A DNA stretch of 64,000 nt from Rhodocyclales bacterium (GTDB taxonomy: Bacteria > Pseudomonadota > Gammaproteobacteria > Burkholderiales > Rhodocyclaceae). The position numbers and the translations under genes were made by a program. The notes under the pieces were generated by a model that saw only the letters and a program-made list of their open reading frames with translations, was not told the origin of the DNA and ran no database searches. The DNA lies in NCBI GenBank assembly GCA_026399475.1, contig JAPLQY010000069.1:62001-126000 (forward strand). The letters run 5' to 3'. Shown here one piece after another: positions 12,078 to 52,225 of the stretch; positions within the stretch are counted from its first letter, which is position 1, and every line of letters starts with the position of its first letter.

Positions 12078-13385
<1,308 letters not shown>

Positions 13386-22537: not shown

Positions 22538-22575
22538 GATGACGTCCTCATGGAGTTGACGAAAATGCGGTGATG

Positions 22576-23370: not shown

Positions 23371-23374
23371 GGCC

Positions 23375-27100: not shown

Positions 27101-27136
27101 AATTCGTGATCTGGATGAGGCGCCAAAACGCGCCAG

Positions 27137-27165
27137 AAAGAACCGCAGTGCAGAATCGTGTTCTG
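27137..27165 (-). promoter_or_regulatory. Conserved operator-like element, site 1
   Basis: The minus strand reads CAGAAC-N4-TTCTGC-N2-TGCGGTTCTTT. Compared with 52065-52093, 22 of 29 positions are identical, including the inverted pair CAGAA-N5-TTCTG and a third half-like GTTCTTT. It lies between divergent units, close upstream of the dehydrogenase operon. Confidence 0.6.
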
Positions 27166-27347
27166 TAATATGCGTGCAGTGCGGATTGTTCTAGGACTTC
27201 GCCGGAAAGTCAATAAACATCCGATATTGCAGCGCAAAATGGGGTTTCGAGGCCGCCTTTTCGGCCTCTGCCGCGCTTGACGAGCCAAACGGCCTTGTGC
27301 CACCATTCGGAACATTCTCCCGGTTTTGGAATTCCGACTTGCACAGC

Positions 27348-30112: not shown

Positions 30113-30117
30113 GTCCA

Positions 30118-30990
30118 GTGTCGGATCTGGTTCTTCAGGCGCTGTATTCCGGACTGCTGGTCGGCGGCGTCTATGCGCTGATCGCGCTCGGACTGGCGCT
30201 GACTTTCGGCACCATGCGGGTGATCAACCTCGCCCATGGCGAGCTGGTGCTGCTCGCCGCCTACATGGCCTATGTGGTGGAGAGCCGGCTGCAGCTCAAC
30301 CCGGTGTTCGCCATTCCGCTGGCGGTGCTGGTGGCCTGCGCCTGCTCGGCGCTGGTGTATTTGCTGGTGGATCGGATCCGCAAGAACCGCGAGCTGAATT
30401 CGCTGATGCTCACCTTCGCCATCGGCATCGTCATCACCAATGCCGTGCTGCTGATTTTTTCCGGCGACGTGCGCTCCACCAACTCGGCGCTGATGCAGGA
30501 CGCCGTGCAGTTGGGGCCGCTGTTCAGCATGAAGAGCGAACTGGGCGCTTTCGTCGTCAGCCTGGTGCTGGTCCTGGCGCTCTGGCAGTGGCTGTCGCGC
30601 AGCTGGTACGGGCGTGCCGTGCGTGCCGTGTCGTCCAACCGCGATGCGGCCAAGCTGATGGGCATCAACCCGGCCAGGACCGAGCTGATCTCCTTCATCG
30701 TCGCCGGCGCGCTGGCCGCCTGCGCCGGCGTCGCACTGTATTCGAGCAGCGTGGTACATCCGCCGCTGGGCCACGCGCTGACGGTCAAGGCCTTCATCAT
30801 CACCGTGCTGGCCGGCGTCGGCTCGGTGCCCGGGGTGCTGGCGGCGGCCCTGTTGCTCGGTGTCACCGAGGCGATGACGGTGACGCTGTGGAGCTCGGCG
30901 CTGCAGGAACTGGTGGGCATGACGCTGTTCCTGGTGGTGCTGCTGGTTCTGCCCAACGGCCTTTTCGGTTCCGCCAAGCGGCGCGGCTGA
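30118..30990 (+). CDS. Liv-type ABC transporter permease (LivH family)
   Basis: An inner-membrane permease of 290 residues with about eight membrane segments. The signature GLALTFGTMRVINLAHGE is near the N-terminus and ITVLAGVGSVPGVLAAALLLG is the conserved EAA-like loop. It starts with GTG at 30118 and overlaps the next gene by the shared TGATG. Confidence 0.92.
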   Translation: MSDLVLQALYSGLLVGGVYALIALGLALTFGTMRVINLAHGELVLLAAYMAYVVESRLQLNPVFAIPLAVLVACACSALVYLLVDRIRKNRELNSLMLTFAIGIVITNAVLLIFSGDVRSTNSALMQDAVQLGPLFSMKSELGAFVVSLVLVLALWQWLSRSWYGRAVRAVSSNRDAAKLMGINPARTELISFIVAGALAACAGVALYSSSVVHPPLGHALTVKAFIITVLAGVGSVPGVLAAALLLGVTEAMTVTLWSSALQELVGMTLFLVVLLVLPNGLFGSAKRRG

Positions 30991-31925
30991 TGAGACGCAA
31001 GGCCTGGCTGCTGTTGCCTGTCTGCTACCTCGCGGTGCCGCTCGCCTTCGGCGGCAACAACTATGTCATGGGCCTGGTGGTGTCCTCGCTGATCGTTGCC
31101 GGTGTCGCCGTGGCCTGGGCGCTGCTCGGCAACCTGGGCGGCATGGTCAGCTTTGGCCACGCCGCCTTCTTCGGCGTCGGCGCCTACGCTTCGGCGCTGC
31201 TGAGCATGAAACTCGGTGTGCCGGTGCTGCTGGCGATCCCGCTTGCCGGCCTGATTGCTGTGCTGTTCTCGGTCGCCATGCTGCCGGCATTGCGCCTGTC
31301 GGGGCCTTACTTCGCGCTGGCAATCCTGGCCTATGCGCAGATCTTCCGCATCCTCACCACCGAGATGGAATTCCTCACCCACGGTTCCGGCGGCATTTCG
31401 CAGATCCCGGTGTTGCCGACCATCGCCGGCTTCGACCTGTCGTCGCGCACGGGCCAGTTCCTGCTGCTGCTGACCCTGCTCGCGGCCTTCCTCGCTGCCT
31501 ACGACTTGATCCGCCGCAGCCATTACGGCATAGCCCTGCGCGCCATGCACGACAGCGAGGACGCGACGCGCGTGGTGGGCGTAAACAGTGTGCTCTTGAA
31601 GTCCTGGATGCTTTTCGTCTCGGCCTTCATGACAGGCGTGATCGGCGCCGTCAATGCCCACGTCATCAACTTCCTCGAACCCGACTACGCCTTCCATGGT
31701 AGCTGGAGCGTGCTGCCCATCGTTGCCGCGATTTTCGGCGGTTATCGCACGGTGACCGGCCCGGCCATCGGCGCCGTGGTGATTTATCTCGTGGATCAAC
31801 TGGTGTTCAAGGCGCTGGTCAGCACCGGGCACCAGATCATCCTCGGCAGCGTGCTGGCACTGATGATCCTGTTCGCGCCCGACGGCCTGCTGCCGCTGCT
31901 GCGCAACGCCCTGCGGCGGATTTAG
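30990..31925 (+). CDS. Liv-type ABC transporter permease (LivM family)
   Basis: The second permease, 311 residues and highly hydrophobic, with LGNLGGMVSFGHAAFFGVGAY near residue 45 and the cytoplasmic AIFGGYRTVTGPAIGA loop. Its ATG at 30990 overlaps the livH stop. Its own stop codon falls inside the first bases of dispersed repeat copy B, which separates it from livG by 166 bp. Confidence 0.92.
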   Translation: MRRKAWLLLPVCYLAVPLAFGGNNYVMGLVVSSLIVAGVAVAWALLGNLGGMVSFGHAAFFGVGAYASALLSMKLGVPVLLAIPLAGLIAVLFSVAMLPALRLSGPYFALAILAYAQIFRILTTEMEFLTHGSGGISQIPVLPTIAGFDLSSRTGQFLLLLTLLAAFLAAYDLIRRSHYGIALRAMHDSEDATRVVGVNSVLLKSWMLFVSAFMTGVIGAVNAHVINFLEPDYAFHGSWSVLPIVAAIFGGYRTVTGPAIGAVVIYLVDQLVFKALVSTGHQIILGSVLALMILFAPDGLLPLLRNALRRI

Positions 31926-32078
31926 CGTGAAACAATTCGTTCGGAGCGACTGGTGATGATCGAGCGAAGCGAGCCGAATGGTAGCCCCGCCCTGGGGCGG
32001 GGATGGGGGTGGGGAAGCCTTCAATTCGCATTTCGCGTGTTTGATTTTCAGCGGGTGGTGCTCGGTGTCATGAGCGTT
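31922..32078. repeat. Dispersed intergenic repeat, copy B
   Basis: About 157 bp homologous to copy A at 6237-6387, from ttagcgtgaaa to tgagcgtt. The middle hairpin here is ccccgcc-ctg-ggcgggg versus cctccc-gtga-gggggg in copy A, so pairing is kept while bases change. It provides the stop codon of livM and splits the liv operon. Confidence 0.75.
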
Positions 32079-32091
32079 CAGGGAGGCAGCC

Positions 32092-32800
<709 letters not shown>

Positions 32801-32808
<8 letters not shown>

Positions 32809-33538
32809 AGTAGACCAGTTGCGCGCTGGTTACGGCGCCATCAACGTGTTGTGGGACGTTTCGCTGACCTTCCCGCTCGGCGAACTGACGGCCATCATCG
32901 GTCCCAACGGTGCCGGCAAGAGCACGCTGCTCAAGGCGATGATGGGCCTGGTGCCGACCACGCAGGGCAGCGTCAGTCTCGATGGTATTGCGCTCACCGG
33001 CCGCGCCACCTGGGACATGGCGAGCCTCGGCCTGGCGCTGATTCCCGAAGGGCGCATGGTGTTCCGCGACATGACCGTGGAAGAAAATCTCGCCATGGGC
33101 GCCTTTCCCAAGCCGCACCGCGCCGCATTGGGGCGCAACCTCGAGCGAGTCTTCGGCCTCTTCCCCAGGCTCAAGGAAAGGCGCCGCCAGTTTGCCGGCT
33201 CGCTGTCCGGCGGCGAGGCGCAGATGCTGGCGATGGGTCGCGGCCTGATGTCCGAGCCGCGCGTGCTGCTGATCGACGAGCCATCGCTGGGCCTGGCGCC
33301 GGTGGTGGTGCGCGAGATTTTCGAGATCCTGGGCGGGCTTAAAGCTCAGGGCGTGACCATCGTCCTGGTCGAGCAGAACACCCACATGGCATTGAAGCTG
33401 GCGGACGGCGTGTACCTGATGCGTGCCGGCAAGGTCATTCTTGCCGAGCGTGCCGCGGCGCTTGATCTCGACCGCCTGCACGACCTGTATTTCGCTCGTG
33501 AGGGCGGCGCTGAGGGCCTTGCCGGTGTTGCCGAATGA
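32801..33538 (+). CDS. Liv-type ABC transporter ATPase (LivF family)
   Basis: The partner ATPase of 245 residues. Walker A is GPNGAGKST, the LivF-type IPEGRMVFRDMTVEENL is present, the signature is LSGGEAQM, Walker B LLIDEPSLGLAP and the H-loop-position residue is Gln in VLVEQNT, as usual for LivF. It overlaps livG upstream by 8 bp and the MFS gene downstream by ATGA. Confidence 0.93.
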
Positions 33539-34971
33539 GGAGCCTTGCCACCGATCAGCGCCAGGCCGAGGTGGCGGCGATGTTCGGGCGTCACGGCCCG
33601 GCCTATCGCTGGTGGGCGGTGCTCACCGTGATGCTCGGCACGGTCTCGGCGATCATGGAGGCGACGGTGGTCAATGTCGCACTGCCGGAAATCATTCGCG
33701 TTTTTCATGTCGGCCACGACCAGGTGCAACTTTTGTCCACCGGCTTTCTTGCCGCCACTACGGCCTCGATGCTGCTTGCGACTTGGGCCATGCAGCGCTT
33801 CGGCATCCGCCGCACCTATGTCGGCGCGCTGCTGCTGCTGGTGATGTTCTCGGTGCTGGCCACGCTCAGCGATCGCTTCGAGCTGCTGGCACTGTGCCGC
33901 ATCGGGCAGGGCAGCATCGCCGGCCTGATCCAGCCGCTGGCCATGCTGGTCATCATCGACGTCTTTCCGCTGCACGAACGCGGCCGGGCGATGGGCGCCT
34001 ATGGCCTCGGCATCGTGCTGTCGCCGGCCGTGGGCCCGGTGGCGGGCGGCCTGCTGGTCGACCACTTCGGCTGGCGCGCGGTGTTCCTGGTCACCGTGCC
34101 GCTGTGCCTCGCTGCCATTGCGCTGGCGCCGCGCTTCGTCATCGCCGGGCGGCCGCTGCCCGGCGCGCACAAGCGGCCCTTCGACCTGATCGGACTGCTG
34201 CTGGTAGTGGCTGCGCTGTGCGCCCTGCTCGGCGGCTTGGCGGCGCTGATCCGGCAGCCGGCGTTCGGTGCTGCCGGCGTCGCGCTCGGTCTTGCGCTGG
34301 CGGTGGCCTTCGTCGTCTGGGAGCGCAGCACCCTGCATCCGCTGCTGGATTTCAGCATCTTCCGCGAGGCGGGCTTCGGCGCAGCGGTGCTGGTAGCGGC
34401 CTCCTATGGCGTCGGCATTTACGGTTCGACCTACCTGGCGCCGGTTTTTGCCCAGATCGGTGCCGGCTTCTCGGCCTACGAGGCCGGACTGATGCTGCTG
34501 CCGGGTGGCGCCGTGCTGGCCATCGTGCTGCTGCAGGCCGGGCGGCTGGCGGATCGCTTCCCGCCCAACCGGGTGGCGATGGCGGGGCTGGCCTTCTTTT
34601 CCGTATCGGCCATCCTCATGGGATTTTCCTCCGCAGCCACCGGCTTCTGGCTGCTCGCGCTGTGGGTGGCGATCGGCCGTGTCGGCCTGGGCCTGATCAT
34701 TCCGGGCCTGAACGCCGGTGCCCTGCGCCTGCTGCCCCACGGCACCGAGGCCGCCGGCTCGGCCTCGATCAACTTCTTTCGCCAGCTCGGCGGCGCGCTC
34801 GGCGTCACGCTGCTGGCGCTGTTCCTCGAAGGACGCGAGCGCCAGCTGAATGCCGTGCATGGCCTGCAGCCGATGCAGGAAGGCTTCTTCCTGATCGCCT
34901 TCGTCTATTGCCTCGCCCTGATCCCCGCCTGGCTGATGACCGGCCGCGCGCAAGGTCCCCGATCCGTATAG
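33535..34971 (+). CDS. MFS transporter, DHA2/EmrB type
   Basis: A 478-residue, 14-segment-type drug:H+ antiporter-like protein. Marks are the motif C region GLGIVLSPAVGPVAGGLLVD and the first-helix TVVNVALPEI. It lacks the membrane fusion partner of EmrAB-like pumps in this operon. It is coupled to livF by ATGA and followed by the flavoprotein gene eight bases later. It may export a pathway by-product or toxic substrate. Confidence 0.88.
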   Translation: MRSLATDQRQAEVAAMFGRHGPAYRWWAVLTVMLGTVSAIMEATVVNVALPEIIRVFHVGHDQVQLLSTGFLAATTASMLLATWAMQRFGIRRTYVGALLLLVMFSVLATLSDRFELLALCRIGQGSIAGLIQPLAMLVIIDVFPLHERGRAMGAYGLGIVLSPAVGPVAGGLLVDHFGWRAVFLVTVPLCLAAIALAPRFVIAGRPLPGAHKRPFDLIGLLLVVAALCALLGGLAALIRQPAFGAAGVALGLALAVAFVVWERSTLHPLLDFSIFREAGFGAAVLVAASYGVGIYGSTYLAPVFAQIGAGFSAYEAGLMLLPGGAVLAIVLLQAGRLADRFPPNRVAMAGLAFFSVSAILMGFSSAATGFWLLALWVAIGRVGLGLIIPGLNAGALRLLPHGTEAAGSASINFFRQLGGALGVTLLALFLEGRERQLNAVHGLQPMQEGFFLIAFVYCLALIPAWLMTGRAQGPRSV

Positions 34972-34979
34972 GAGAATTC

Positions 34980-35951
34980 ATGCCCCTGCCCAAAGTCCTG
35001 CAAGACAACCTCGCGCTGCCGGTGATCGGCGCGCCGATGTTCATCGTCTCCCAGCCGCAACTGGTGCTGGCGCAATGCATGGCCGGCATCGTCGGTTCCT
35101 TCCCGGCCTTGAACGCGCGGCCGAAGGAGTTGCTCGACGAGTGGTTGTCCATGATGACGTCCGAGATCGACGCCGCTCGTCGCGCCAACCCGGGCCGCAA
35201 GATTGCGCCCTTCGCCGTGAACCAGATCGTGCATCACTCCAATGACCGGCTCGACCATGACATCGCGTTATGCGTCAAGCACCGGGCGCCGATGATCATC
35301 ACCAGCCTGCGTGCGCCCGGCGACGTGGTCAAGGAAGTGCATGGCTACGGCGGTATCGTGTTCCACGACGTGATCAACGTGCGCCATGCGAAAAAGGCGC
35401 TGGAGGCGGGCGTCGACGGCCTGATCCTGGTCGCCGCCGGCGCCGGAGGGCACGCCGGCATGCTCAGCCCCTTCGCGCTGGTGTCCGAAGTGCGGCGCTT
35501 CTGGGACGGACCGATCGCGCTGTCCGGCGCGATCACGCGCGGCAACCAGATACTCGCAGCGCAGGCCATGGGTGCCGACCTGGCCTACATGGGCACGCGC
35601 TTCATCCCGACACCGGAAGCCAATGCGGTGGACGGCTACAAGCAGATGATTGTGGACAGCACTGCGGCGGACGTCGTCTATACGCCATACTTCACCGGCG
35701 TAAATGGCAACTACCTGCGGCCGAGCATTACAGCGCAGGGGCTGGACCCCGACAACCTGCCGCTGCGCGACAAGACCAGCATGAGCTTCGGCTCGGATCG
35801 GACCAAGGCCTGGCGCGACATCTGGGGCGTCGGCCAGGGTATCGGTTCGATAGACGAAATTATTCCCGTAAGTGAAGTAGTGGCGCGGCTCGGTCGTGAA
35901 TACCGGGACGCCCGTGATGCGCTGTGCGCGCTGTATGCACTAGAGGACTGA
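34980..35951 (+). CDS. Nitronate monooxygenase-family flavoprotein
   Basis: A 323-residue FMN-binding TIM-barrel protein of the NMO/2-nitropropane dioxygenase family. It has the N-terminal LPVIGAPMF, the central LILVAAGAGGHAG phosphate-binding segment and GADLAYMGTRFI. In actinobacterial steroid pathways a family member (IpdC) acts as a reductase, so the family name may mislead. It starts with ATG 34980, with gga upstream, and ends one base before the IclR gene. Confidence 0.87.
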   Translation: MPLPKVLQDNLALPVIGAPMFIVSQPQLVLAQCMAGIVGSFPALNARPKELLDEWLSMMTSEIDAARRANPGRKIAPFAVNQIVHHSNDRLDHDIALCVKHRAPMIITSLRAPGDVVKEVHGYGGIVFHDVINVRHAKKALEAGVDGLILVAAGAGGHAGMLSPFALVSEVRRFWDGPIALSGAITRGNQILAAQAMGADLAYMGTRFIPTPEANAVDGYKQMIVDSTAADVVYTPYFTGVNGNYLRPSITAQGLDPDNLPLRDKTSMSFGSDRTKAWRDIWGVGQGIGSIDEIIPVSEVVARLGREYRDARDALCALYALED

Positions 35952-35952: not shown

Positions 35953-36780
35953 ATGAGCAAACAGAACAAGGTCGCTGCTGTTCCCGCTGCGGTTGCAACC
36001 AAGGTCGCCGGCAAGGAGGATCGCCATTTCGTCACCGCCCTGGCACGCGGGCTCTCGGTGCTTTCGTGCTTCAGCTCGGGCGAGAAACTGCTCGGCAACC
36101 TCGACATCGCCAAGCGCTGCAAGCTGCCCAAGTCCACCGTCTCGCGCCTGACCTACACGCTGACCAAGCTCGGCTACCTGGTCTTCGTCGAGGAGAACGG
36201 AAAATACCGTTTGGGTACTTCGACGCTGGCGCTGGGCAGCGCCATGCTGGCGCGCCTCGACGTGCGCGACCTGTCGCGGCCGCTGATGCAGGAACTCGCC
36301 GACTTTTCCAAGGCCATGGTTTCGCTCGGCAGTCGCGATCGCCTGTCGATGATCTATGTCGGCAACGCGCGCAGCTCGGCGGCATTGACGCTCTCGCTGG
36401 ATGTCGGCTCGCGCATTCCGATCGCCACCACGGCGATGGGCCGCGCCTACCTGGCGCTGATCCCCGAGCGCGAGCGCGAAGACATCATGGAGCGCGTGCG
36501 CGAACTCGACGAAGTGGCCTGGCCGGCAATCCGTGCCGGCATCGAGCGGGCGCTGAAGGAATACCGCGAAACCGGCTGCGTCAGTTCCTTCGGCGAGTGG
36601 CAGACCGATGTCAATGCCATCGCCGTGCCGCTGCGTCCCGGCGGCGGCCTGCCGCCGATGGCGATCAACTGCGGCGGCCCGGCGTTTACGCTGTCGAAGG
36701 AATTCCTGCTGGGCGAAGTGCGGCCGAAGCTGATCGAGCTGGTGAGGCAACTGGAAGCTTCGTTGGGGATGCGGGGGTAG
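35953..36780 (+). CDS. IclR-family transcriptional regulator
   Basis: A 275-residue regulator. The N-terminal winged helix covers about residues 25-90 (ALARGLSVLSCF, LPKSTVSRLTYTL). The C-terminal effector-binding domain follows, with IPIATTAMGRAYLA. A Lys/Ala-rich leader of about 22 residues precedes the fold. It is the last gene of the import operon and the only regulator in the island, so it is the best candidate for control of its genes. Confidence 0.93.
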   Translation: MSKQNKVAAVPAAVATKVAGKEDRHFVTALARGLSVLSCFSSGEKLLGNLDIAKRCKLPKSTVSRLTYTLTKLGYLVFVEENGKYRLGTSTLALGSAMLARLDVRDLSRPLMQELADFSKAMVSLGSRDRLSMIYVGNARSSAALTLSLDVGSRIPIATTAMGRAYLALIPEREREDIMERVRELDEVAWPAIRAGIERALKEYRETGCVSSFGEWQTDVNAIAVPLRPGGGLPPMAINCGGPAFTLSKEFLLGEVRPKLIELVRQLEASLGMRG

Positions 36781-42698: not shown

Positions 42699-43652
42699 TT
42701 AGTGCGACTTGTCGCTGCCGTAGCGGGCGTGCAGGCCGGCGATTGCCTGGTGAAAGTCGCGGATGGTTTCTTCGATGATCTGGCGCACCGGCAGGATGGC
42801 GTCGATGCGGCCGCAGATCTGGCCGGTGAGCGGCACGGCGGCTTCCATGTCGCCACCGAAATACAGTTGCTGCACACCGGCGAACTCCTTGCGAATGTCT
42901 TCCGGCAGGGTCAGTTCCAGTTGCGACGTGCGTTCGGTGCGCAGTGCGCGCAGTGCCGCGCCCTTGCCGCCGTGGTTGAGCAGGACGGTGTCGGTTTCCT
43001 CGGCGGCGACGATGGCATTCTTCCAGTTGGCATGCACCGGCGATTCGCTCGAACTGAGCATGCGGGTGCCCATCTGGATGCCCTCGGCGCCCAGCGCAAA
43101 CGCCGCGGCCATGGAAATGCCGTCAGAGAAGCCGCCAGCGGCCACGACCGGGATGCCTACCTTCGAGCAGACCAGCGGCAGCAGGACCATGGAGGCCACG
43201 TCGCGCTGGTTCTTGAAGCCACCGCCTTCGCCGCCTTCGACGATCAGCCCGTCGACGCCGGCTTCGACAGCTTTCAGCGCGCCCCTGAGCGTCGGCACGA
43301 CATGGAACACGGTGAGGCCGGCGGCTTTGAGCTGGGCGCAAAAACGCGTCGGATCGCCGGCCGAGGTGGTGACGAAGCGCACGCCCTGTTCGACCACGAA
43401 GTCGACGATCGAGGGATCGCGCACATAGGTCAGGGCGATGTTGACGCCGAAGGGCTGGTCGGTCAGGTCGCGCATCTTGCGGATCTCGTCGCGAATCGCC
43501 GTCAGATCGCCCGACGAGGTTTCGATGATGCCCATGCCGCCGGCGTTGGACACCGCCGAGGCCAGTTGGGCACGGGCGATCCAGCCCATCGGGGCCTGGA
43601 TGATCGGATGTTTGACGCCGAGCAGTCGGGTGACGCGGTTTTCGATGCTCAT
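42699..43652 (-). CDS. Nitronate monooxygenase-family flavoprotein (IpdC-like possible)
   Basis: A 317-residue FMN protein with the family marks KHPIIQAPMGWIA, SNAGGMGIIE, the GxEGGG turn (VEGGEGGGF) and ALGAEGIQMGTRML. In steroid C/D-ring pathways a relative (IpdC) is a reductase of a CoA ester; that role is possible here given the neighbours. It starts 17 bp after the acyl-CoA synthetase gene. Confidence 0.85.
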   Translation of the reverse strand: MSIENRVTRLLGVKHPIIQAPMGWIARAQLASAVSNAGGMGIIETSSGDLTAIRDEIRKMRDLTDQPFGVNIALTYVRDPSIVDFVVEQGVRFVTTSAGDPTRFCAQLKAAGLTVFHVVPTLRGALKAVEAGVDGLIVEGGEGGGFKNQRDVASMVLLPLVCSKVGIPVVAAGGFSDGISMAAAFALGAEGIQMGTRMLSSSESPVHANWKNAIVAAEETDTVLLNHGGKGAALRALRTERTSQLELTLPEDIRKEFAGVQQLYFGGDMEAAVPLTGQICGRIDAILPVRQIIEETIRDFHQAIAGLHARYGSDKSH

Positions 43653-43669
43653 GTTCGGGTTCCTCACAG

Positions 43670-45271
43670 TCACAATGTCGCCGCAGGGCGATACGCATCG
43701 CGCAGTTCGCGCTTCAATACCTTGCCGATGGCACTGCGCGGCAGGGCCTCGACAATCTCCACGGCAGCAAGACGCTGGGTCTTTCCGAGGCGCTCGTTGG
43801 CCCATTCCTTGATCTGCTCGACGTCCCGTAGAAGCGAGCTTGCTCGCGTTGGCGGGTGTTTCGCGAGCAAGCTCGCTCCTGCAACGACGAAGGCCACCGG
43901 GGTTTCGCCCCAGTGTTCCGAGGCGACGCCGACCACGGCCGCTTCCGCTACGTCGGGGTGCTGCAGCAGCACGGCTTCCAGATCGCTGGGATAGACGTTG
44001 AAGCCGCCGGAAATGATCATGTCCTTCTTGCGGTCCATCAGCGTCAGAAATCCGTCGGCGTCGAAGCGGCCGACATCGCCGGTGCGGATGAAACGCTTGC
44101 CGTCGGGCGCGTACCACTCGGCCTCGCGGGTCTTCTCCGGCTGGCGGTGGTAGCCGTTCATCATGGCTGGCGAATGGCCGACGATTTCACCAATTGCGCC
44201 GATCTCGCCGCGTGGCACTTCCCGGCCGGACTCGTCGATCAGGCGCATGTCGTGGCCTTCGGCCGGCGCGCCGACGGTGGCGAGTTTGTCCGGATGCTCA
44301 TGGGCGGCGAGGATGCAGGTGCCGCCGCCTTCGGTCATGCCGTAGTACTCGACCAGGCCGCCGGGCCAGCGCTTGAGGATGTCGGCCTTCAAGGCGGCCG
44401 AGAACGGCGCGCTGGTGCACAGCTTCATGCGGAAGCTGGAAAGGTCGTAGCGGTCGAAATCGGGGCGCGCCATCAGGCGCTGGTACTGTACCGGCACCAG
44501 CATGGTGTGCGTGGCGCGATACTTTTCGGCGAGCGCCAGATACTTCGCCGCATCGAACTTCGCCATCAGCACCACCGTACCGCCCAGCGTTACGGTGGGA
44601 AAGAAGCTGACCAGCGTGGTGTTGGAGTAGAGCGGCGTGGCGATCACGGTCACCGCATCGGGGCCGTAGCCTTGCAGCCGCGCGCGCTGCACATGCGCCC
44701 AGCGCATGCCGTGCGGCTGCACGATGCCCTTCGGCATGCCGGTGGTGCCCGAGGAATAGATGATGTTGAAGGGCCACTCGGGCCGGATGTCGACACCTGT
44801 CGGCGTGCTTCCGACCGGCGCCAGCCAGCGCGAGAAGGGCTCGCCACCTGAGCTGTCGTCAAGCGCGATGAAGCGCGCCTTGATGTCGGAACGAACCGGG
44901 CCGAGCTCTTGCGCAGTGGTGGCGTCGACGAACATCAATCGGGCTTCGGCGTTCGCCGCCATGTCGGCAAGGCTTTGCGCCGTCGAGGAGGGCGCCAGGG
45001 GCGCGACCGCGACCCCGGCGCGCAGGGCGCCAAGAAACACCGCGGCATATTCGAGCGAGGCGCCGGCGCAGATCGCCACCGCCTCGGTGGGGCGGACGCC
45101 GTTGCGTTGCAGCGTGGCGGCGACGCGATCCATCATGGCGTCCAGGGCGGCGAAGGAGACGGTGCGCTGGTCCTGGATCAGCGCCGGGTGACCGGGACGG
45201 GTCCGGGCCTGCTGCCGTATCAGCCCGGAATAGGTAGCAAAAGGCTGGTCGATGAGCTGCTCGGGGCTCAT
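43670..45271 (-). CDS. Acyl-CoA synthetase with REP-derived insertion
   Basis: A 533-residue ligase with YSSGTTGMPKG, EYYGMTEGGG, DRKKDMIISGGFNVYPSD and the terminal SAIGKVLKRELRD. Between VAFVVAG and DVEQIKEWANERLGKTQ it carries about 20 extra residues (ASLLAKHPPTRASSLLR) that are encoded by a REP-like palindrome (43827-43886). The reading frame stays open and the catalytic Lys is downstream, so the enzyme may still work. It starts in an ATGA overlap with the MaoC gene. Confidence 0.9.
   Translation of the reverse strand: MSPEQLIDQPFATYSGLIRQQARTRPGHPALIQDQRTVSFAALDAMMDRVAATLQRNGVRPTEAVAICAGASLEYAAVFLGALRAGVAVAPLAPSSTAQSLADMAANAEARLMFVDATTAQELGPVRSDIKARFIALDDSSGGEPFSRWLAPVGSTPTGVDIRPEWPFNIIYSSGTTGMPKGIVQPHGMRWAHVQRARLQGYGPDAVTVIATPLYSNTTLVSFFPTVTLGGTVVLMAKFDAAKYLALAEKYRATHTMLVPVQYQRLMARPDFDRYDLSSFRMKLCTSAPFSAALKADILKRWPGGLVEYYGMTEGGGTCILAAHEHPDKLATVGAPAEGHDMRLIDESGREVPRGEIGAIGEIVGHSPAMMNGYHRQPEKTREAEWYAPDGKRFIRTGDVGRFDADGFLTLMDRKKDMIISGGFNVYPSDLEAVLLQHPDVAEAAVVGVASEHWGETPVAFVVAGASLLAKHPPTRASSLLRDVEQIKEWANERLGKTQRLAAVEIVEALPRSAIGKVLKRELRDAYRPAATL
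43827..43886. repeat. REP-like palindrome within a coding sequence
   Basis: The arms gaagcgagcttgctcgcg (43831-43848) and cgcgagcaagctcgctcc (43862-43879) pair with one mismatch. The wording, (g)tag-aagcgagcttgctcgcg, matches the REP type abundant in Pseudomonas and also seen elsewhere. It sits in frame in an acyl-CoA synthetase. Confidence 0.85.
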
Positions 45272-45759
45272 GCTCGGATGTCGTCGGCCTTCGGGACATC
45301 CCGCCGCAGGAACATGCCATAGCCTTCCATCTGCATGACTTCCTCGTTGTTCTGGTTCAGCATCTCCCAGCGGTTGCGCACCAGGCCGACATGAGGTTTG
45401 CTGTCGAGGGGGCGCGCTTCGAGTACCACGGTGCGCACGTGCAGGGTGTCGCCGGGGCGCACCGGTTTCAGCCAGCGAATGTTTTCCAGCCCCGGCGAAC
45501 CGAGGCTCGCCGTTTCCAGCAGGTAGGCATCGCACATCATGCGCATGGCCAGCGCGCAGGTATGCCAGCCGCTGGCGCAGAGGCCGCCGAACAGGCTGTT
45601 CTTGCCACCTTCCTCGGAGAGGTGGAAGGGCTGCGGGTCGAACTGGCGGGCGAAGTCGATGATGGCTTCGGCGGTCAGGGTGACGCCGCCGAACTCGCGG
45701 ACCTTGCCGACAGGGAAATCTTCCCAGTAGTACTTGAAGGTCTTGGCCGGGATGTTCAT
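45268..45759 (-). CDS. MaoC-family dehydratase
   Basis: A 163-residue hotdog-fold protein with the hydratase 2 pattern: D-P-Q-P-F-H near residue 41 followed by FGGLCASGWHT. MaoC proteins add water to 2-enoyl-CoA. The start at 45759 is chosen because the longer frame upstream lacks a family match. It lies 16 bp after the ComB-like gene and overlaps the synthetase gene. Confidence 0.88.
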   Translation of the reverse strand: MNIPAKTFKYYWEDFPVGKVREFGGVTLTAEAIIDFARQFDPQPFHLSEEGGKNSLFGGLCASGWHTCALAMRMMCDAYLLETASLGSPGLENIRWLKPVRPGDTLHVRTVVLEARPLDSKPHVGLVRNRWEMLNQNNEEVMQMEGYGMFLRRDVPKADDIRA

Positions 45760-45775
45760 TGTGTTTTCCTCTGAT

Positions 45776-46495
45776 TCAAACCGGACGCAGGGCGCCGCCC
45801 TGCAGCAGCGGCACCACGCCGTAACAGCTTTCCTGTGCGGCGAAGGCGACCTCGGCATCGAGCCGGCGTGCCAGCATCATGCGACCTACGCGGGCGCGGC
45901 GCAGGGCGTCGAGGCCATCGCAGTGGTCGTGCAGCAGTTCGGCCGCGAGCGCCGCATCGGAAAACTCGGCGCTGGCGACGCGACCATGAAATAGCGAAAC
46001 CAGGTAACCGGCGCCGTAGAAATCTTCCAGGTTGAAATTGTCGGCCGAACCGGAGCAGACGATCAGGATCGTGCTGTCGGGATGGTGCGCGACGATGCGA
46101 TCCACCACGGCGCGGCCGTTGAGCAGCGCGGCGGCATAGACGTGGGCGGCGCCTTTCGACTTGGCCAGCGCGACGGTTCCGTTGGTGGTGCAGTAGATCA
46201 GGCGGCGGCCTTCGATGCCTTCTTTCAGCAGGGCTTGCGGTGTCGGATGGACGAAGCCGGGCAGGGTGTCGGCATTGAGTTCGCCGGACAGCACATAGGA
46301 GCCTTCCGGAAAGGCTTTGGCCGCCTCCTGTGCGGCGCGGCCGTCGAGCGTGGGGATGACTTCGGTTGCGCCGTGGGCCAGCGCGGTGACGATGGACGAG
46401 GTGGCGAACAGGATGTCGAGCACCACCACCACCTTGCCTTCGAGGCGTTGGGCGTCGAGTTCTTCCTTTTTCAGCAGGACGTGGATCTTTTGCAT
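45776..46495 (-). CDS. ComB-like 2-phosphosulfolactate phosphatase family protein
   Basis: A 239-residue protein matching ComB in layout: VVVVLDILFATSSIVTALAHGA near the N-terminus, IYCTTNGTVAL in the middle and CSGSADNFNLEDFYGAG later. ComB dephosphorylates 2-phosphosulfolactate in coenzyme M synthesis. No other coenzyme M gene is visible here, so a different phosphatase role is likely. It is the first gene after the MITE-like element. Confidence 0.8.
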   Translation of the reverse strand: MQKIHVLLKKEELDAQRLEGKVVVVLDILFATSSIVTALAHGATEVIPTLDGRAAQEAAKAFPEGSYVLSGELNADTLPGFVHPTPQALLKEGIEGRRLIYCTTNGTVALAKSKGAAHVYAAALLNGRAVVDRIVAHHPDSTILIVCSGSADNFNLEDFYGAGYLVSLFHGRVASAEFSDAALAAELLHDHCDGLDALRRARVGRMMLARRLDAEVAFAAQESCYGVVPLLQGGALRPV

Positions 46496-46501
46496 ATGTC
46501 T

Positions 46502-46647
46502 AGAGCCTGTGAAGAAATCGTAGCGAGCGGGCCGCAGCGGGGTGCGGCCGGAGCGCAGCTACCGGAGCGTATGTCGCTATACGTGAGGATAGCGAGCACC
46601 GCCCAATCCCTGATCCGGCACGCGCAGTAGATTTATTCATAGGCTCT
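46502..46647. mobile_element. MITE-like element with terminal inverted repeats
   Basis: The 146-bp segment is bounded by 18-bp inverted repeats, agagcctgtgaagaaatc (46502-46519) and the complement of agagcctatgaataaatc (46630-46647), with two mismatches. Inside are further hairpins (for example ggccgca-gcgggg-tgcggcc). It carries no ORF. The right end touches the stop codon of the thioesterase gene. No target duplication is obvious. Confidence 0.6.
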
Positions 46648-47099
46648 CAGCCGTCCGGCTGTTCGCGCGGCGTGACCGGCTTCATCAGGGCAAAGACGCC
46701 GCTACCGGTCATGATGGTGCGCGTCCCCGTCACCAGCCGGCAACTGGCATAGGCCAGGCGGCCGCCCATGCGGTCGATGTCGACATGGGCTTCGACCCAG
46801 TTACCGGGTTCTGCGCTGGTGATGAAGTTGGTGGTAAGGCTGACCGTGACGATGGGCTGCGGCGGCTCGCGCGAACTGGAGACGACGATGCCCAGCGCCG
46901 TGTCGACCATGGTGACGAGGAAGCCACCGTGGGCGATATGACGGATGTTGGTATGCCGGTCCTCGATGCGGATGGCGAGAATCAGCTGGCCGCGCTCGCC
47001 CTTTGTTTCGTCGAGGCGGTAGTACCAGGGGCCGAGACTGGTCAGGTAGCCGCCGCCGCGCTTGAGCAGCTTGAAGCCCTCGGGAATGTTGCTGCTCAT
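46647..47099 (-). CDS. PaaI-type hotdog thioesterase
   Basis: A 150-residue hotdog protein with RHIAHGGFLVTMVDTALG, the HGG motif of PaaI thioesterases that release CoA from dead-end acyl-CoA esters. It starts at 47099 and overlaps the crotonase gene upstream by ATGA. The stop codon abuts the MITE-like element. Confidence 0.88.
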   Translation of the reverse strand: MSSNIPEGFKLLKRGGGYLTSLGPWYYRLDETKGERGQLILAIRIEDRHTNIRHIAHGGFLVTMVDTALGIVVSSSREPPQPIVTVSLTTNFITSAEPGNWVEAHVDIDRMGGRLAYASCRLVTGTRTIMTGSGVFALMKPVTPREQPDG

Positions 47100-47878
47100 G
47101 GCTTGTGTCCGTGAATTTTCTCTGGATCGGGGCGGCGCTTTTCGAGGAAGGCGCTGAAGATTTCCTTGGCGGCGGGCTCGGCCACCAGGTCGGAGAAGAA
47201 AATGACTTCTTCGTCCATGGCTTCCAGCGCGCTGCGGTCGGGTGGTCGCTTCATCAGCGCCTTGGTCACAGCCAGCGAAGACGCCGGCAGGGCGGCGAGT
47301 TTCTTCGCCGCGGCCATGGCCGTGTCCATCAACTGACTGGCGGCGACGACGCGATTGACGAAGCCGGCTTCGCGCGCCGTCGCGGCGTCGAAGGGTTCGC
47401 CCAGCAACAGCAGTTCGGCCGCGCGCTGGTAGCCGGCGACGCGTGGCAGCAGGAGGCTGGAGCCGGCCTCGGGGCACAGGGCCAGGTTGACGAAGGGCAG
47501 CTGGAACAATGCATTTTCTGCTGCATACACCAGGTCGCAGTGCAGCAGCAGTGTCGTGCCGATGCCCACGGCATTGCCGGCGACGGCGGCCACCAGCGGC
47601 TTCTCGAAGGCCGACAGCAGGTGCAGGAAGGGAATTGCGGCACTCGGGTCGCCGGCCTTGCGCTGCAGGAAGTCGCCAAGATCGTTGCCGGCCGTAAACA
47701 GGTCGCTCTGGCCGCGAATCAGCACCGCCCTGACGTGGCGCTGCTCGCGGGCATGGCACAGGGCTTCGCTCATGGCGCGATACATGTCGCCGGTGATGGC
47801 GTTCTTCTTTTCGCGGCGGCTGATCTCGATGCTGACGATGCCGTCCTGATCGGTGACGAGAATGTGGGGATCGCTCAT
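47096..47878 (-). CDS. Enoyl-CoA hydratase/isomerase family protein
   Basis: A 260-residue crotonase. The oxyanion-hole regions FTAGNDLGDFL and AGNAVGIGTTLLLHCD are conserved. The LALCPEAGSSLLLP segment has a single Glu followed by SS, which resembles the 3,2-enoyl-CoA isomerase branch more than true hydratases with two Glu. It lies four bases downstream of the 599-residue dehydrogenase gene. Confidence 0.85.
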   Translation of the reverse strand: MSDPHILVTDQDGIVSIEISRREKKNAITGDMYRAMSEALCHAREQRHVRAVLIRGQSDLFTAGNDLGDFLQRKAGDPSAAIPFLHLLSAFEKPLVAAVAGNAVGIGTTLLLHCDLVYAAENALFQLPFVNLALCPEAGSSLLLPRVAGYQRAAELLLLGEPFDAATAREAGFVNRVVAASQLMDTAMAAAKKLAALPASSLAVTKALMKRPPDRSALEAMDEEVIFFSDLVAEPAAKEIFSAFLEKRRPDPEKIHGHKP

Positions 47879-47882
47879 GGGT

Positions 47883-49682
47883 TCAGAAGGATTCCGGGGG
47901 CATGGTCAGGGTCGTGTCGTCGAGGCTGCGCAGCAGTTCGTGCCATTGCCGGGTCTTGGGCAGTTCCCAGCGGTAGAACCAGCGGCAGGCCGCCAGTTTG
48001 CCACGATAGAAGGCAGCGTCGATCGCGACGCCCTGCCGCAAGCCGCGCTGCGCCACCAATGCCTGGCGCAGCCAGATCCAGGCGATGACCGTGTGGCCGA
48101 ATGCTTCGAGGAAGAGCACGGCATTGGCCAGTGCCAGTGTCGGATTGGTCGCCAGTACGGGGCCGAGCGCCTGCAGCGTGGCGGCCACGTCACCCAGCGC
48201 GGCGCCGAGCTCTGCGGCGTAGCCGGCGAGGGCTTCGTCTGCCTGCGCTTCGGCGATGGTCTTCCGTATTTCGGCGGCGAACAACTTCATCGCCGCGCCG
48301 TTGTTCATCACTGCCTTGCGTCCCAGCAGGTCCAGCGCCTGGATGCCGTGCGTGCCTTCGTGGATCGGGTTGAGGCGGTTGTCGCGGTAAAACTGCTCGA
48401 CCGGATATTCGCGGGTATAGCCATAGCCGCCATGGATCTGGATGGCGAGGCTGTTGGCTTCGAGGCACCACTGCGAGGGCCAGGATTTGGCGATCGGCGT
48501 CAGCAGGTCGAGCAGCAGGCCGGATTCCTGTATCGCCGCCTCGCCAGAGCCGACTTTTGTTTCATCGACCAGCCGCGCGCAATACAGGCACAGCGCGTAG
48601 CCGCCTTCGACATAGGCCTTCTGCGCCAGCAACATGCGTTTGACATCGGCATGCTCGATGATCGGCACTTGCGGTTCGGCCGGGTTCTTGTTGGTCGGCG
48701 CGCGGCCTTGCGGGCGTTCCTTCGCATACTCCAGCGAGGCCAGGTAGCCGCGGTAGCCCAGCATCACGGCGCCCATGCCGACACCGATGCGGGCTTCGTT
48801 CATCATGTGGAACATGCAGGACAGGCCCTTGTGCGGCTCGCCCACCAGTTCCCCGATGCATTGTCCCTGCTCGCCGAAAGCCAGCATGGTCGAGGTAGTG
48901 CCACGATAGCCCATCTTGTGGATCAGGCCGGTCAGCGTCACGTCGTTGCGTTGACCGAGCGTGCCGTCGTCATTGACGCGGAACTTGGGCACGATGAACA
49001 GCGAGATTCCCTTGACCCCCGGCGGCCCGCCGGGAATCTTGGCCAGCACCAGGTGAATGATGTTCTCGCTCAGATCGTGGTCGCCGGCGGAAATGAAAAT
49101 CTTGTTGCCGGAGAGCGAGTAGGTGCCGTCGGCATTCGGTGTGGCGCTGGTGGTGATGTCGGACAGGCTCGACCCGGCCTGCGGCTCGGTCAGCGCCATG
49201 GTGCCGAAGAAGCGCCCGGCCAGCAGAGGTTCGAGATACTTCCTGTGCTGCGCCTCGGTGCCGAAGCGGTGGATGACGTTGGCGTTGCCGATGGTGAGGA
49301 AGGGATAGGCGGCGGTGCCGACATTGGCGCTCTTGAACAGCGAGAAACTGGCCTGGGTCATGACCACAGGCAACTGCATGCCGCCGCGTTCGAAGTCGTG
49401 CGCCGCGGCGATGAAGCCTGCGTCGCAGAAGGCTTTCAGCGCTTCCTTGACCTCGGGAATCATGCTTACGCGCCGGCCGTCGAAAGTCGGCTCGTGCTCG
49501 TCGGCCTTGTGGTTGTGCGGCGCGAACTTTTCGGTGGCCATCGCCTCGGCCGTATCGAGTACGGCGAGGAAGGTTTCCTTGCTGTGCTCGGCGTAGCGCG
49601 GGCGGGAGGTCAGTGACTCGACATCGAGTACCTCGAACAGCTGGAATTCGAGATCCCTGCGATTGATTACCTGGCTGGTCAT
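47883..49682 (-). CDS. Acyl-CoA dehydrogenase, DmdC-like long form
   Basis: A 599-residue dehydrogenase of the long family that includes DmdC (3-methylmercaptopropionyl-CoA dehydrogenase). The catalytic Glu lies in NPIHEGTHGIQALDLLGRK, and LTEPQAGSSLSD is the FAD-contacting block. A C-terminal helical domain of about 130 residues follows. The start overlaps the small-subunit gene by ATGA. The substrate is probably a bulky or substituted acyl-CoA. Confidence 0.9.
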   Translation of the reverse strand: MTSQVINRRDLEFQLFEVLDVESLTSRPRYAEHSKETFLAVLDTAEAMATEKFAPHNHKADEHEPTFDGRRVSMIPEVKEALKAFCDAGFIAAAHDFERGGMQLPVVMTQASFSLFKSANVGTAAYPFLTIGNANVIHRFGTEAQHRKYLEPLLAGRFFGTMALTEPQAGSSLSDITTSATPNADGTYSLSGNKIFISAGDHDLSENIIHLVLAKIPGGPPGVKGISLFIVPKFRVNDDGTLGQRNDVTLTGLIHKMGYRGTTSTMLAFGEQGQCIGELVGEPHKGLSCMFHMMNEARIGVGMGAVMLGYRGYLASLEYAKERPQGRAPTNKNPAEPQVPIIEHADVKRMLLAQKAYVEGGYALCLYCARLVDETKVGSGEAAIQESGLLLDLLTPIAKSWPSQWCLEANSLAIQIHGGYGYTREYPVEQFYRDNRLNPIHEGTHGIQALDLLGRKAVMNNGAAMKLFAAEIRKTIAEAQADEALAGYAAELGAALGDVAATLQALGPVLATNPTLALANAVLFLEAFGHTVIAWIWLRQALVAQRGLRQGVAIDAAFYRGKLAACRWFYRWELPKTRQWHELLRSLDDTTLTMPPESF

Positions 49683-50803
49683 GCCGCGAGCAGAGTGTCG
49701 CTGAAGCGGCCGAGGTGGTAGTCCGCGTCGCCAAACGTCAGGCCGATCATGGTCAGGCGCTTGAAGTAATGGCTGACGTTGAGTTCGTCGACGACACCCA
49801 TGCCGCCGTGTAGTTGCACCGCCTGCTGGCCGACCAGACGTGCCGACTGCGTGACGTAGGTCTTGGCGGCGGCGACCGAACGGCTGCGCTCCGCGGCATC
49901 GGCCGAGTCGACGCGGACCGCGGCCAGCGTGGCCATGGAACGGGCCTGCTCGGTGGCGATCACCATGTCGGCCATGCGGTGCTGCAGCGCCTGGAACTTG
50001 CCGATCGGCACGCCGAACTGCTTGCGGGTCTTGAGGTATTCGAGCGTGATTTCATTCAGCGCCGACATGATGCCGACGGCTTCGGCACAGAGCGCGGCGT
50101 TGGCGTAGTCGACGGCGCGTTCGATGATGGGCAGTGCACCGCCGGCAGCGCCGATCAGTGCATCGGCGCCGACCGTGACGTTAGCGAATTTGATGTCGGC
50201 AGCCCGTGCGCCGTCCTGCGTCGGATAGCTGCGCAGCGTGACGCCGGGAGCCTTGGCATCGACCAGGAACAGGGAGATTCCCTGGCCGCTATTTGCTGAA
50301 ACGATCAGCTGGTCGGCGGACGGCGCCCCCAGTACCACGGTCTTGGTTCCGCTGATCTGCCAGTAGGCACCGTTGGCCGTAGCGGTAGTGGCGACATGAT
50401 CGAGCTGGTAACGGACGCCGGCCTCGAAGTGGGCCAGTGCCAGCATCAGCTCGCCGCCGGCAATCGCGGGTAGCAGAGCTTCCTTTTGGGTGTTGCTGCC
50501 CGCATCGCGGATCAGTCCGCCGCAGAGTACGACGGCGGAAACATAGGGCTCCAGTGCGAGGCCGCGGCCGAGCATTTCCATCACCAGCATGATGTCGACG
50601 GCGTTGCCGTTCAGCCCTCCAAAATCCTCATGGAAAGGCAGGGCGAGGATGCCGAAATCGGCAAAGGTCTTCCATGCGTCGCGATCGAAACCGTCGGCGG
50701 ATTTTGCCAGTGCGCGGCGATGTTCGAAGGGGTAGTCCTTCGCAATGAAACGGCGCAGGGTGTCCTGCAGCGCGAGTTGTTCTTCGGTGTAGTTGAAGTC
50801 CAT
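49679..50803 (-). CDS. Acyl-CoA dehydrogenase, small (beta) subunit
   Basis: A 374-residue subunit starting MDFNYTEEQLALQDTLRRFI and ending AVQLHGGMGVVDELNVSHYFKR then FGDADYHLGRFSD. It is the paralogue of the subunit at 24853-25938. It follows the large-subunit gene by two bases and overlaps the DmdC-like gene, so the pair is co-expressed. Confidence 0.9.
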   Translation of the reverse strand: MDFNYTEEQLALQDTLRRFIAKDYPFEHRRALAKSADGFDRDAWKTFADFGILALPFHEDFGGLNGNAVDIMLVMEMLGRGLALEPYVSAVVLCGGLIRDAGSNTQKEALLPAIAGGELMLALAHFEAGVRYQLDHVATTATANGAYWQISGTKTVVLGAPSADQLIVSANSGQGISLFLVDAKAPGVTLRSYPTQDGARAADIKFANVTVGADALIGAAGGALPIIERAVDYANAALCAEAVGIMSALNEITLEYLKTRKQFGVPIGKFQALQHRMADMVIATEQARSMATLAAVRVDSADAAERSRSVAAAKTYVTQSARLVGQQAVQLHGGMGVVDELNVSHYFKRLTMIGLTFGDADYHLGRFSDTLLAA

Positions 50804-50805: not shown

Positions 50806-52014
50806 TTACAGTCCCAGGATCATCTGCGAGATGATGTTTTTCTGGATTTCGTTGGAGCCGCCGTAGATGGTGGTCTTTCGGTAGTTGAAATAATGGCCGG
50901 AGAGCGCGGGGGCATGGTCGCCATAGGCCTCCATCAGCGCGTCGCCCGGCCAGTCGGCACTCAGCCCGTCTTCCACGTAGGGCAGGGCGTAATGGCCAAG
51001 CGCCTGCATTTGCAGTTCAGTCAGCATCTGCTGGATTTCGGAACCCTTGATCTTGAGGATGGAGGCTTCCGGTCCCGGCGCACGCTTTTTCTCGCCTTCG
51101 GCGGAAATTACTCGCAGGTTGGTGATCTCAAGCGCCATGAGTTCGAGTTCGACTTGCGCGATGCGGTCGCGGAAGCGCTGGTCCTCGATCAGCAGGCGGC
51201 CATTGGCGGTTTCCTTGCGCGCGATTTCCTTCAGCTTGTGCAGTTCGCGCTTCGAGCGGCCGACGCCGGCTATACCGGTGCGCTCGTGGCCGAGCAGGAA
51301 CTTGGCGTAGGTCCAGCCCTTGTTTTCTTCGCCGATCAGGTTCTGCACCGGTACTCTGACGTCCTCGAACCAGACCTCGTTGATCTCGTGTTCGCCGTCC
51401 ATCATGATGATCGGGCGCACCGTAATGCCCGGCGTCTTCATGTCGATCAGCAGAAAGGAAATGCCTTCCTGCCGGCGGCCGGAGGTAGAGGTGCGCACCA
51501 GGCAGAAAATCCAGTCGGCGTATTGCCCGAGGGTGTTCCAGGTCTTCTGTCCATTGACCACGTAATGCTCGCCTTCCCTGACAGCGCGGGTCGTGAGCGA
51601 AGCCAGGTCGGAGCCCGAACCGGGCTCGGAATAACCCTGGCACCACCAGTCGGTGCCGTCGATGATGCGCGGCAGATAGCGTTGCTGCTGCGCCGAGTTG
51701 CCAAAAGCCATGATCACGGGCGCCACCATCTTGAGGCCGAAGGGCAGTTGCATGGGTGCCCCCGCTTCGGCGCATTCGTCCTCGAAAATGTGCTGTTGCA
51801 CGGCATTCCAGCCTGTGCCGCCAAAGGCGGTGGGCCAGGCCACGGCGCCCCATCCCTGCCCGTTCAGTATCTGTTGCCAGCGAACGAAATCGCTCTTCTC
51901 CATGCGCTTGCCGCCGAGGACCTTGCGACTGATTTCGGCGGGCAGCCTGGCGCGCAGAAAGCCGCGCACTTCTTCGCGGAATGCCTGCTCTTCGGCAGTG
52001 AAATTGAGATCCAT
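50806..52014 (-). CDS. Acyl-CoA dehydrogenase, large (alpha) subunit
   Basis: A 402-residue paralogue of the large subunit at 25940-27100. It shares MDLNF, EGEHYVVNGQKTWNTLGQYA and LLGHERTGIAGVG with the putative catalytic Glu, and again GGSNEIQKNIIS at the end. An extra loop of about 15 residues (SADWPGDALMEAYGD) lies before the C-terminal block, possibly changing the substrate pocket. It leads the long minus-strand operon. Confidence 0.9.
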   Translation of the reverse strand: MDLNFTAEEQAFREEVRGFLRARLPAEISRKVLGGKRMEKSDFVRWQQILNGQGWGAVAWPTAFGGTGWNAVQQHIFEDECAEAGAPMQLPFGLKMVAPVIMAFGNSAQQQRYLPRIIDGTDWWCQGYSEPGSGSDLASLTTRAVREGEHYVVNGQKTWNTLGQYADWIFCLVRTSTSGRRQEGISFLLIDMKTPGITVRPIIMMDGEHEINEVWFEDVRVPVQNLIGEENKGWTYAKFLLGHERTGIAGVGRSKRELHKLKEIARKETANGRLLIEDQRFRDRIAQVELELMALEITNLRVISAEGEKKRAPGPEASILKIKGSEIQQMLTELQMQALGHYALPYVEDGLSADWPGDALMEAYGDHAPALSGHYFNYRKTTIYGGSNEIQKNIISQMILGL

Positions 52015-52064: not shown

Positions 52065-52093
52065 AAAGAACTGCATAGCAGAACAACGTTCTG
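52065..52093 (-). promoter_or_regulatory. Conserved operator-like element, site 2
   Basis: The minus strand reads CAGAAC-N4-TTCTGC-N2-TGCAGTTCTTT, the counterpart of 27137-27165. Here the core is a perfect inverted repeat, gcagaac-aac-gttctgc on the plus strand (52078-52094). It ends 50 bp upstream of the dehydrogenase ATG. A run of nine G (52053-52061) separates it from the gene. Confidence 0.62.
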
Positions 52094-52225
52094 CAAAGAG
52101 TTTACGCGAGTTCATCCTGGGTGACAAGCTCGGGAAGGCTGATGGCTTGATTCTTTTTCTGCCATCTCCCATAATTCGCCCCCTGCCCAACCGGGTTTTC
52201 TTTCCGGACGGCGTGCAGTTTCGGT

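Follow-up and report, generated by a model that had tools for sequence, protein, structure and literature searches.

A predicted three-box operator shared by two PimCD-like acyl-CoA dehydrogenase operons, and its probable link to an IclR-family regulator

Suvorova and Gelfand (2021; PMC8222616) describe two predicted operator layouts for regulators of the IclR family, GKTYCRYW3-4RYGRAMC and TGRAACAN1-2TGTTYCA, and report 32 orthologous groups in which both are combined as three boxes of alternating direction. The sites of PcaU, PobR, and HmgR, as cited in the same article, consist of a palindrome with an external third half-site. Two-subunit acyl-CoA dehydrogenases of the PimCD type are represented by PimCD of Rhodopseudomonas palustris and by homologues in Ralstonia sp. 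UNC404CL21Col (PMC12543098). RB-TnSeq data from Betaproteobacteria associate PimCD homologues, including those of the Ralstonia strain, with fitness defects on C8, C9, C10, and C12 dicarboxylates, and glutaryl-CoA dehydrogenase with defects on odd-chain dicarboxylates (PMC12543098). In the parts of that article considered here, PimCD is linked to neither an IclR regulator nor an operator, and the IclR protein under discussion is a PcaR-like repressor.

The locus described here resembles both systems. The window, by which we mean the whole 64-kb stretch of DNA analyzed, carries two probable operons, A and B, whose first genes encode the large subunit of a two-subunit PimCD-type dehydrogenase. 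Unlike the Ralstonia and R. palustris systems as reported in those parts of the article, each is preceded by a candidate operator of an IclR-family protein. The genes concerned are as follows.

50806..52014, minus strand: PimC-like acyl-CoA dehydrogenase large subunit, first gene of operon B (TIGR03204, 523.6 bits, below the cut-off of 623.85)
49679..50803, minus strand: PimD-like acyl-CoA dehydrogenase small subunit, operon B (TIGR03203, 415.8 bits, below the cut-off of 652.7)
42699..49682, minus strand: rest of probable operon B (acyl-CoA dehydrogenase, 4HBT-domain protein, 2-phosphosulpholactate-phosphatase-domain protein, MaoC-like protein, CoA ligase, nitronate-monooxygenase-like protein)
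25940..27094, minus strand: PimC-like acyl-CoA dehydrogenase large subunit, first gene of operon A (TIGR03204, 497.2 bits, below the cut-off of 623.85)
21431..25938, minus strand: rest of probable operon A (PimD-like subunit with 289.5 bits to TIGR03203, below the cut-off of 652.7; CoA ligase, acyl-CoA thioesterase, zinc-binding dehydrogenase)
27348..35951, plus strand: divergent probable operon, reaching iclR (CoA ligase, branched-chain-type ABC transporter parts, MFS transporter, nitronate-monooxygenase-like protein)
35953..36780, plus strand: IclR-family regulator (PF09339 and PF01614), proposed from co-occurrence as the binder of both operators

The extents of these operons are predicted, for B from strand and spacing. 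No PimC or PimD score lies above its curated cut-off, and the dehydrogenase subunits are best called PimCD-like, with a presumed substrate. Amid the acyl-CoA genes of operon B, the gene with the 2-phosphosulpholactate phosphatase domain (PF04029; 45776-46495) is an unusual neighbor. A tRNA-His gene (52227-52302, plus strand) stands back to back with operon B and could be served by a predicted promoter-like sequence, TTGATT-17-CATAAT (52147-52175, plus strand). In several relatives, operator A and the pimC-like gene are separated by a gene for a small 4HBT (PaaI-like) thioesterase, as at 12332-12763 of locus L034, and similar N-termini follow the site in L079, L162, L171, and L177. The window has no 4HBT gene at 27094-27137, where operator A directly precedes pimC, and L041 may hold a remnant.

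The shared element and its boxes

The initial annotation had proposed that a 29-bp element precedes both dehydrogenase operons. Both copies are present on the minus strand, at 52065-52093 and 27137-27165, and are identical at 22 of 29 positions. The degenerate pattern derived from them (CAGAAC-N4-TTCTGC-N2-TGC(A/G)GTTCTTT on the coding strand, with up to three mismatches) matches the window twice, at exactly these sites, compared with a mean of 0.00 in 100 shuffles, and has no other match in the 4.21-Mb genome. When the two 130-bp leaders were shuffled, an identity of 22 positions was reached once in 5000 trials, which is not a corrected probability given that the pair had been chosen from many promoters. 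The distance of 50 bp from element to start codon holds for site B. At site A the distance becomes 42 bp rather than 37 bp, since we take ATG 27094 (MDLNFSPEE...) as the start in line with the orthologues of this gene; the upstream TTG at 27100 would fit the shorter gap.

The first genes of the two operons are paralogous, as had been suggested, with 64.7% identity. Continued identity of the leaders beyond the element would point to a shared origin by duplication. Instead, only 0 to 5 of 10 positions are identical in the 10-bp bins that flank the element. The likeness therefore stops at the element edges, which argues against a recently duplicated leader.

The two elements can be divided into boxes as follows.

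52065..52093, minus strand: operator B (box1 GCAGAAC 52094-52088, N3, box2 GTTCTGC 52084-52078, TAT, box3 GCAGTTC 52074-52068)
27137..27165, minus strand: operator A (box1 CAGAAC 27165-27160, N3, box2 ATTCTGC 27156-27150, ACT, box3 GCGGTTC 27146-27140)

The first G of box1 in operator B lies one base outside the 29-bp span originally delimited; with the preceding base included, box1 of site A reads ACAGAAC where site B has GCAGAAC. The consensus of the window sites is CAGAAC-N3-(G/A)TTCTGC-N3-GC(A/G)GTTC, in which the boxes alternate in direction (box2 is forward, and box1 and box3 are reverse). The inverted pair GAAC-N3-RTTC is made up of boxes 1 and 2, and boxes 2 and 3 form a 17-bp pair with 7-3-7 spacing, RTTCYGC-N3-GCRGNNC. 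At both window sites box3 is GCRGTTC rather than the symmetric GCRGAAC, so that its outer half has TTC in place of AAC. Of the KstR/KstR2 motifs, that of KstR, TnnAACnnGTTnnA, has half-sites that resemble box1 and box2, with N2 spacing and no third box; the sites described here differ from it by their N3 spacing and by the presence of box3.

The inverted-repeat core with a third half-like element at a fixed distance, as first noticed, corresponds to the published three-box layout of IclR operators, with the third element as box3. As in the operators of Suvorova and Gelfand, the boxes alternate, one pair has the group-1 spacing (7-3-7, 17 bp) and the other the group-2 spacing (N3, GAAC to GTTC), and the site centers there lie mostly 20-80 nt before the gene start, as they do here (PMC8222616). 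Unlike those operators, two of the three sites in the present genome carry the TTC outer half in box3, and the targets are acyl-CoA genes. The palindrome with an extra half-site is also shared with PcaU, PobR, and HmgR, and the best NCBIfam model of the neighboring IclR protein is TIGR02431 pcaR_pcaU (128.1 bits, below the cut-off of 284.75); the protein is assigned to the IclR family by Pfam and is not filed as PcaU. The PcaU motif itself is different, being TTTGTTCGATWATCGMACAMA (as cited in PMC8222616) compared with RTTCYGC-N3-GCRG here, and the operons in the window concern acyl-CoA beta-oxidation.

A third site and conservation among relatives

A genome scan had been suggested as a check on whether further copies lie near catabolic genes, and a search with the three-box core revealed one. 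This third site (G000:C20:23476-23497) reads AGAAC-TAT-GTTCCGC-TAA-GCGGAAC, and its box3 is symmetric (GTTCCGC-TAA-GCGGAAC). A gene for a periplasmic binding protein begins 58 bp after box3 and is followed by the permease and ATPase genes of an ABC transporter, a FadJ-like protein, and a thiolase. The thiolase scores above the NF005494 cut-off (677.3 compared with 615 bits), even though its gene is cut by the end of the stretch. The third conserved copy thus precedes a transport and beta-oxidation operon, in agreement with the regulon that the paralogous first genes had suggested. Between them, the three operons would supply functions from uptake and CoA activation through dehydrogenation and hydration/oxidation to thiolysis.

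Matches to the core formed by box1, box2, and half of box3 must be read with care. Among those listed, the C20 site and operator B have no mismatch, and operator A, C21, and C38 have one. The matches examined apart from the three sites (C21, C38, C78, C82, C92, and two at C40) each fall within a frame that stays open for 100-889 residues, which does not discriminate, given that the true sites likewise lie in open frames; they were put aside by eye, provisionally. Scans of the genome with short cores gave 877 and 894 matches with up to two mismatches (control 609 and 602) and 365 and 373 matches with up to three (control 311 and 321). Such scans are too permissive for listing additional regulon members.

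Comparison of promoter regions among relatives, which had also been proposed, shows that all three sites occur in 6 of 6 same-genus genomes sampled, where the third site precedes the same binding-protein gene each time. The elements are better conserved than their flanks. Invariant columns make up 16 of 27 inside the element and 31 of 207 outside it for the operon B promoters (seven genomes), 14 of 27 and 25 of 187 for operon A (six genomes), and 22 of 27 and 47 of 165 for the third operon (six genomes). Prominent among the other conserved blocks in these alignments are the -35 hexamers.

Association with an IclR-family regulator

A common regulator for both promoters had been postulated, with the IclR protein encoded in the window named as a candidate. 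The conservation just described and the co-occurrence of this gene with the sites both favor that idea. Homologues of the IclR protein at E <= 1e-30 are present in 35 of 199 genomes of the same family, and in 15 of these 35 the identity is about 70% or higher. The exact three-box pattern has 49 matches in 31 of the 199 genomes, compared with 9 matches of the reversed control in the same set. All 8 family genomes whose IclR is at least 79% identical carry at least two exact three-box sites (23 matches in all), and at least two such sites occur in 3 of the 191 others (G028, G041, and G198). Fisher's test for a close IclR and at least two sites yields 3e-12 by genome, a value inflated by relatedness, and 4e-4 by genus. 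In G198, one match lies about 0.1 kb from an IclR homologue with 47% identity, and the gene after the site is presumably related to glutaryl-CoA dehydrogenase, which its N-terminus resembles.

The association has exceptions. In 23 genomes without a close orthologue there are 26 of the 49 exact matches, which exceeds the reversed control (9) and suggests that chance or other regulators also yield such sites. Conversely, the seven family genomes with an IclR protein at 69-73% identity have no exact three-box match. Five of the seven have a weaker site near iclR by position weight matrix (PWM), with scores of 16.4-20.9; in the stretches examined near iclR, G078 has no PWM site and G091 none above 12.4. 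The maximum in five shuffles of the window was 10.2, and a chance-like match found genome-wide in L040 scored 18.7, so that the weak sites of the 69-73% genomes must be regarded as unproven.

In a further set, 80 loci around IclR orthologues of named records were kept from 463 confirmed, including representatives from Rhodocyclaceae, Rhizobacter, Azohydromonas, Aquabacterium, Caldimonas, Noviherbaspirillum, Paraburkholderia, and Undibacterium. They contain 36 strict palindromes and 47 three-box sites, and the reversed patterns give 0 and 0. At least one strict site is present in 52 of the 80 loci (reversed-pattern control, 0 of 80). Half of the 28 siteless loci are shorter than 15 kb and 14 are not, and 15 of the 52 site-bearing loci are equally short; shortness accounts for at most part of the absences. 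In small control sets, sites occur in 2 of 28 loci, in 1 of 5 loci of IclR homologues with 53-55% identity, and in 0 of 3 other loci of the own genome. The site precedes iclR itself in L092, L216, and L227, and in L080 and L082 the region separating iclR from a divergent PimC-like gene contains weaker sites. Overall, an IclR-family regulator is linked to the site in genomes that carry it, apart from the exceptions described above.

Two Azoarcus genomes carry sites of the form TGTCTGC-N3-GCAG instead of GTTCTGC-N3-GCAG (L085:951 and 9316; L088:7870 and 16309), and the recognition helix of their IclR protein is PRSTVAR instead of PKSTVSR, a possible case of co-evolution. TGTC-type half-sites are found in 4 of 4 PRSTVAR loci and in 4 of 84 PKST[VI]SR loci, a weak covariation in that the four PRSTVAR loci are two Azoarcus contigs each counted twice, which also have GTTC-type half-sites. 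The regular expression found no helix in 7 of the 95 loci of this survey, and the 95 include other contigs counted twice.

The first genes after sites in other loci code, among others, for PimC-type dehydrogenase, 4HBT thioesterase, CoA ligase, FadJ-like protein, MFS transporter, and IclR, as well as for a 601-residue acyl-CoA dehydrogenase and a 3-hydroxyacyl-CoA dehydrogenase that passes NF006124 (679.7 compared with 508 bits). One further target is an acyl-CoA dehydrogenase by Pfam, for which no NCBIfam model reached 1e-90, and which by its N-terminus we take to be similar to glutaryl-CoA dehydrogenase. This survey used crude ORF calling on 129 site rows, with palindromes counted on both strands, some loci counted twice, and some ORFs in the wrong frame, so its cluster sizes are not regulon counts. 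Taken together with the RB-TnSeq fitness defects (PMC12543098), the target genes suggest that the substrates are dicarboxylates of the pimelate type.

Promoter geometry and proposed repression

Both operators in the window begin downstream of a predicted promoter.

52099..52127, minus strand: predicted sigma-70-type promoter of operon B, TTGTCA-17-TAAACT (9 of 12 matches; hexamers partly conserved)
27185..27213, minus strand: predicted sigma-70-type promoter of operon A, TTGACT-17-AACAAT (9 of 12 matches; hexamers partly conserved)

The predicted -10 and the operator are separated by 18 bp at site A and by 4 bp at site B. In the interval from site A to the divergent CoA-ligase gene, the analysis called no promoter directed rightward. 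Among 84 non-redundant gene-facing sites, 33 have a strong sigma-70-like promoter whose -10 ends 11-31 bp before box2, including 23 of the 37 three-box sites; opposite-strand calls number 14 of 84, many of these regions being divergent, and shuffled upstream sequence yields a mean of 0.9 and a maximum of 5. The distances from -10 to box2 peak at 28-29 bp (14 sites) and at 18-19 bp (8 sites). When the distance is taken from the -10 to the operator edge nearest the promoter, and given the 11-31 bp required before box2, it is 18-19 bp at 22 of 34 promoter-linked sites, namely at 15 of the 24 that have box1 and 7 of the 10 that lack it. Under the same requirement, box1 is on the promoter side at 24 of 34 sites, on the far side at 1, and absent from 9, a distribution biased by the search pattern; for strict palindromes alone, the numbers are 9, 1, and 9. 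In the divergent intergenic regions of L197, L198, L208, L223, L229, L232, L233, and L237, two palindromes lie about 100-165 bp apart, apparently one for each divergent promoter.

A protein bound at the start or in the early transcribed region, downstream of the -10, is expected to block RNA polymerase, and the position of the operators downstream of predicted promoters therefore suggests repression. We are rather confident that the element is the operator of the IclR protein encoded at 35953-36780, which would block transcription just downstream of the promoters until released by an effector. From the computed sites, their conservation, the predicted promoter geometry, and the co-occurrence, we infer binding, sign of regulation, effector, and substrate as follows. 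The IclR protein would bind the three-box operator just downstream of each promoter and prevent transcription until released by an effector, for which a dicarboxylate or the corresponding CoA thioester is the most likely candidate. The two operons in the window and the third operon look like one regulon, most likely that of the neighboring IclR protein, comprising in this genome, by its three known sites, two PimCD-type dehydrogenase operons and one operon for an ABC transporter, a FadJ-like protein, and a thiolase. The best reading of the gene content is that this protein represses dicarboxylyl-CoA (pimelate-type) beta-oxidation and that the operon substrates are probably dicarboxylic acids. 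Among the papers listed by title and start of abstract in a literature search, none describes this regulator.

Could the IclR protein instead activate its targets, as a PcaU-like activator or as a dual regulator acting through the three-box site? The PcaR/PcaU/PobR family is its best NCBIfam model, at a score below the cut-off, but the operators start downstream of the predicted -10, by 18-19 bp at most promoter-linked sites, where a bound protein would be expected to obstruct the polymerase, and we consider activation unlikely. It is rather improbable, too, that another transcription factor binds the element and that IclR is simply a neighbor. Candidates of this kind exist, such as a TetR-type protein like FadP, described for fatty-acid degradation in Betaproteobacteria (PMC5343134), or a LysR-type regulator with dicarboxylate phenotypes in the same group (PMC12543098). 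However, the element follows the three-box arrangement that has been published for IclR proteins (PMC8222616), the sites track the IclR orthologue and precede or adjoin its gene in some taxa, and no other DNA-binding regulator was recognized among the 50 window ORFs (of 171 listed) that were scanned with Pfam.

Two further explanations may be considered. Many sites lie within predicted leaders, and strict palindromes are able to fold into stems of 7 bp and loops of 3 bases, so the element might act as a 5' leader RNA structure in which box1-box2 and box2-box3 form mutually exclusive hairpins. We consider this very improbable: GCRGTTC in box3 of both window sites breaks the outer pairs of the box2-box3 stem, the predicted start of operon B falls at about the edge of box1, and such a structure would leave the IclR gene link and the IclR layout unexplained. 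Scarcely credible is a functionless remnant from duplication of the dehydrogenase operons. The first genes are indeed paralogues, but the leader likeness ends at the element, which also precedes unrelated genes and in three promoters exceeds its flanks in conservation. Duplication of the leader was rejected on its dissimilar flanks, and the third site, which stands before a non-homologous gene, contradicts the remnant explanation.

Returning to repression by IclR, we offer a broader speculation, toward which we lean less than not. The operators may be modular, with two or three boxes and a promoter-side edge fixed at 18-19 bp after the -10 with or without box1, so that the extra box would displace the core by roughly one turn of the helix. 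The number of boxes may set the strength of repression or allow two dimerization modes, and across Burkholderiales and Rhodocyclaceae the IclR protein may serve dicarboxylyl-CoA beta-oxidation as its dedicated switch.

These findings tie an IclR protein found widely in Betaproteobacteria to a concrete predicted operator and a set of operons that cover transport, activation, dehydrogenation, hydration, and thiolysis. Its substrate and effector are now directly testable. The two-box and three-box sites with their common promoter geometry provide a natural test set for two dimerization modes of IclR proteins, a question raised in PMC8222616, and a dicarboxylate-responsive repressor, if this is what the protein proves to be, would be useful as a sensor.
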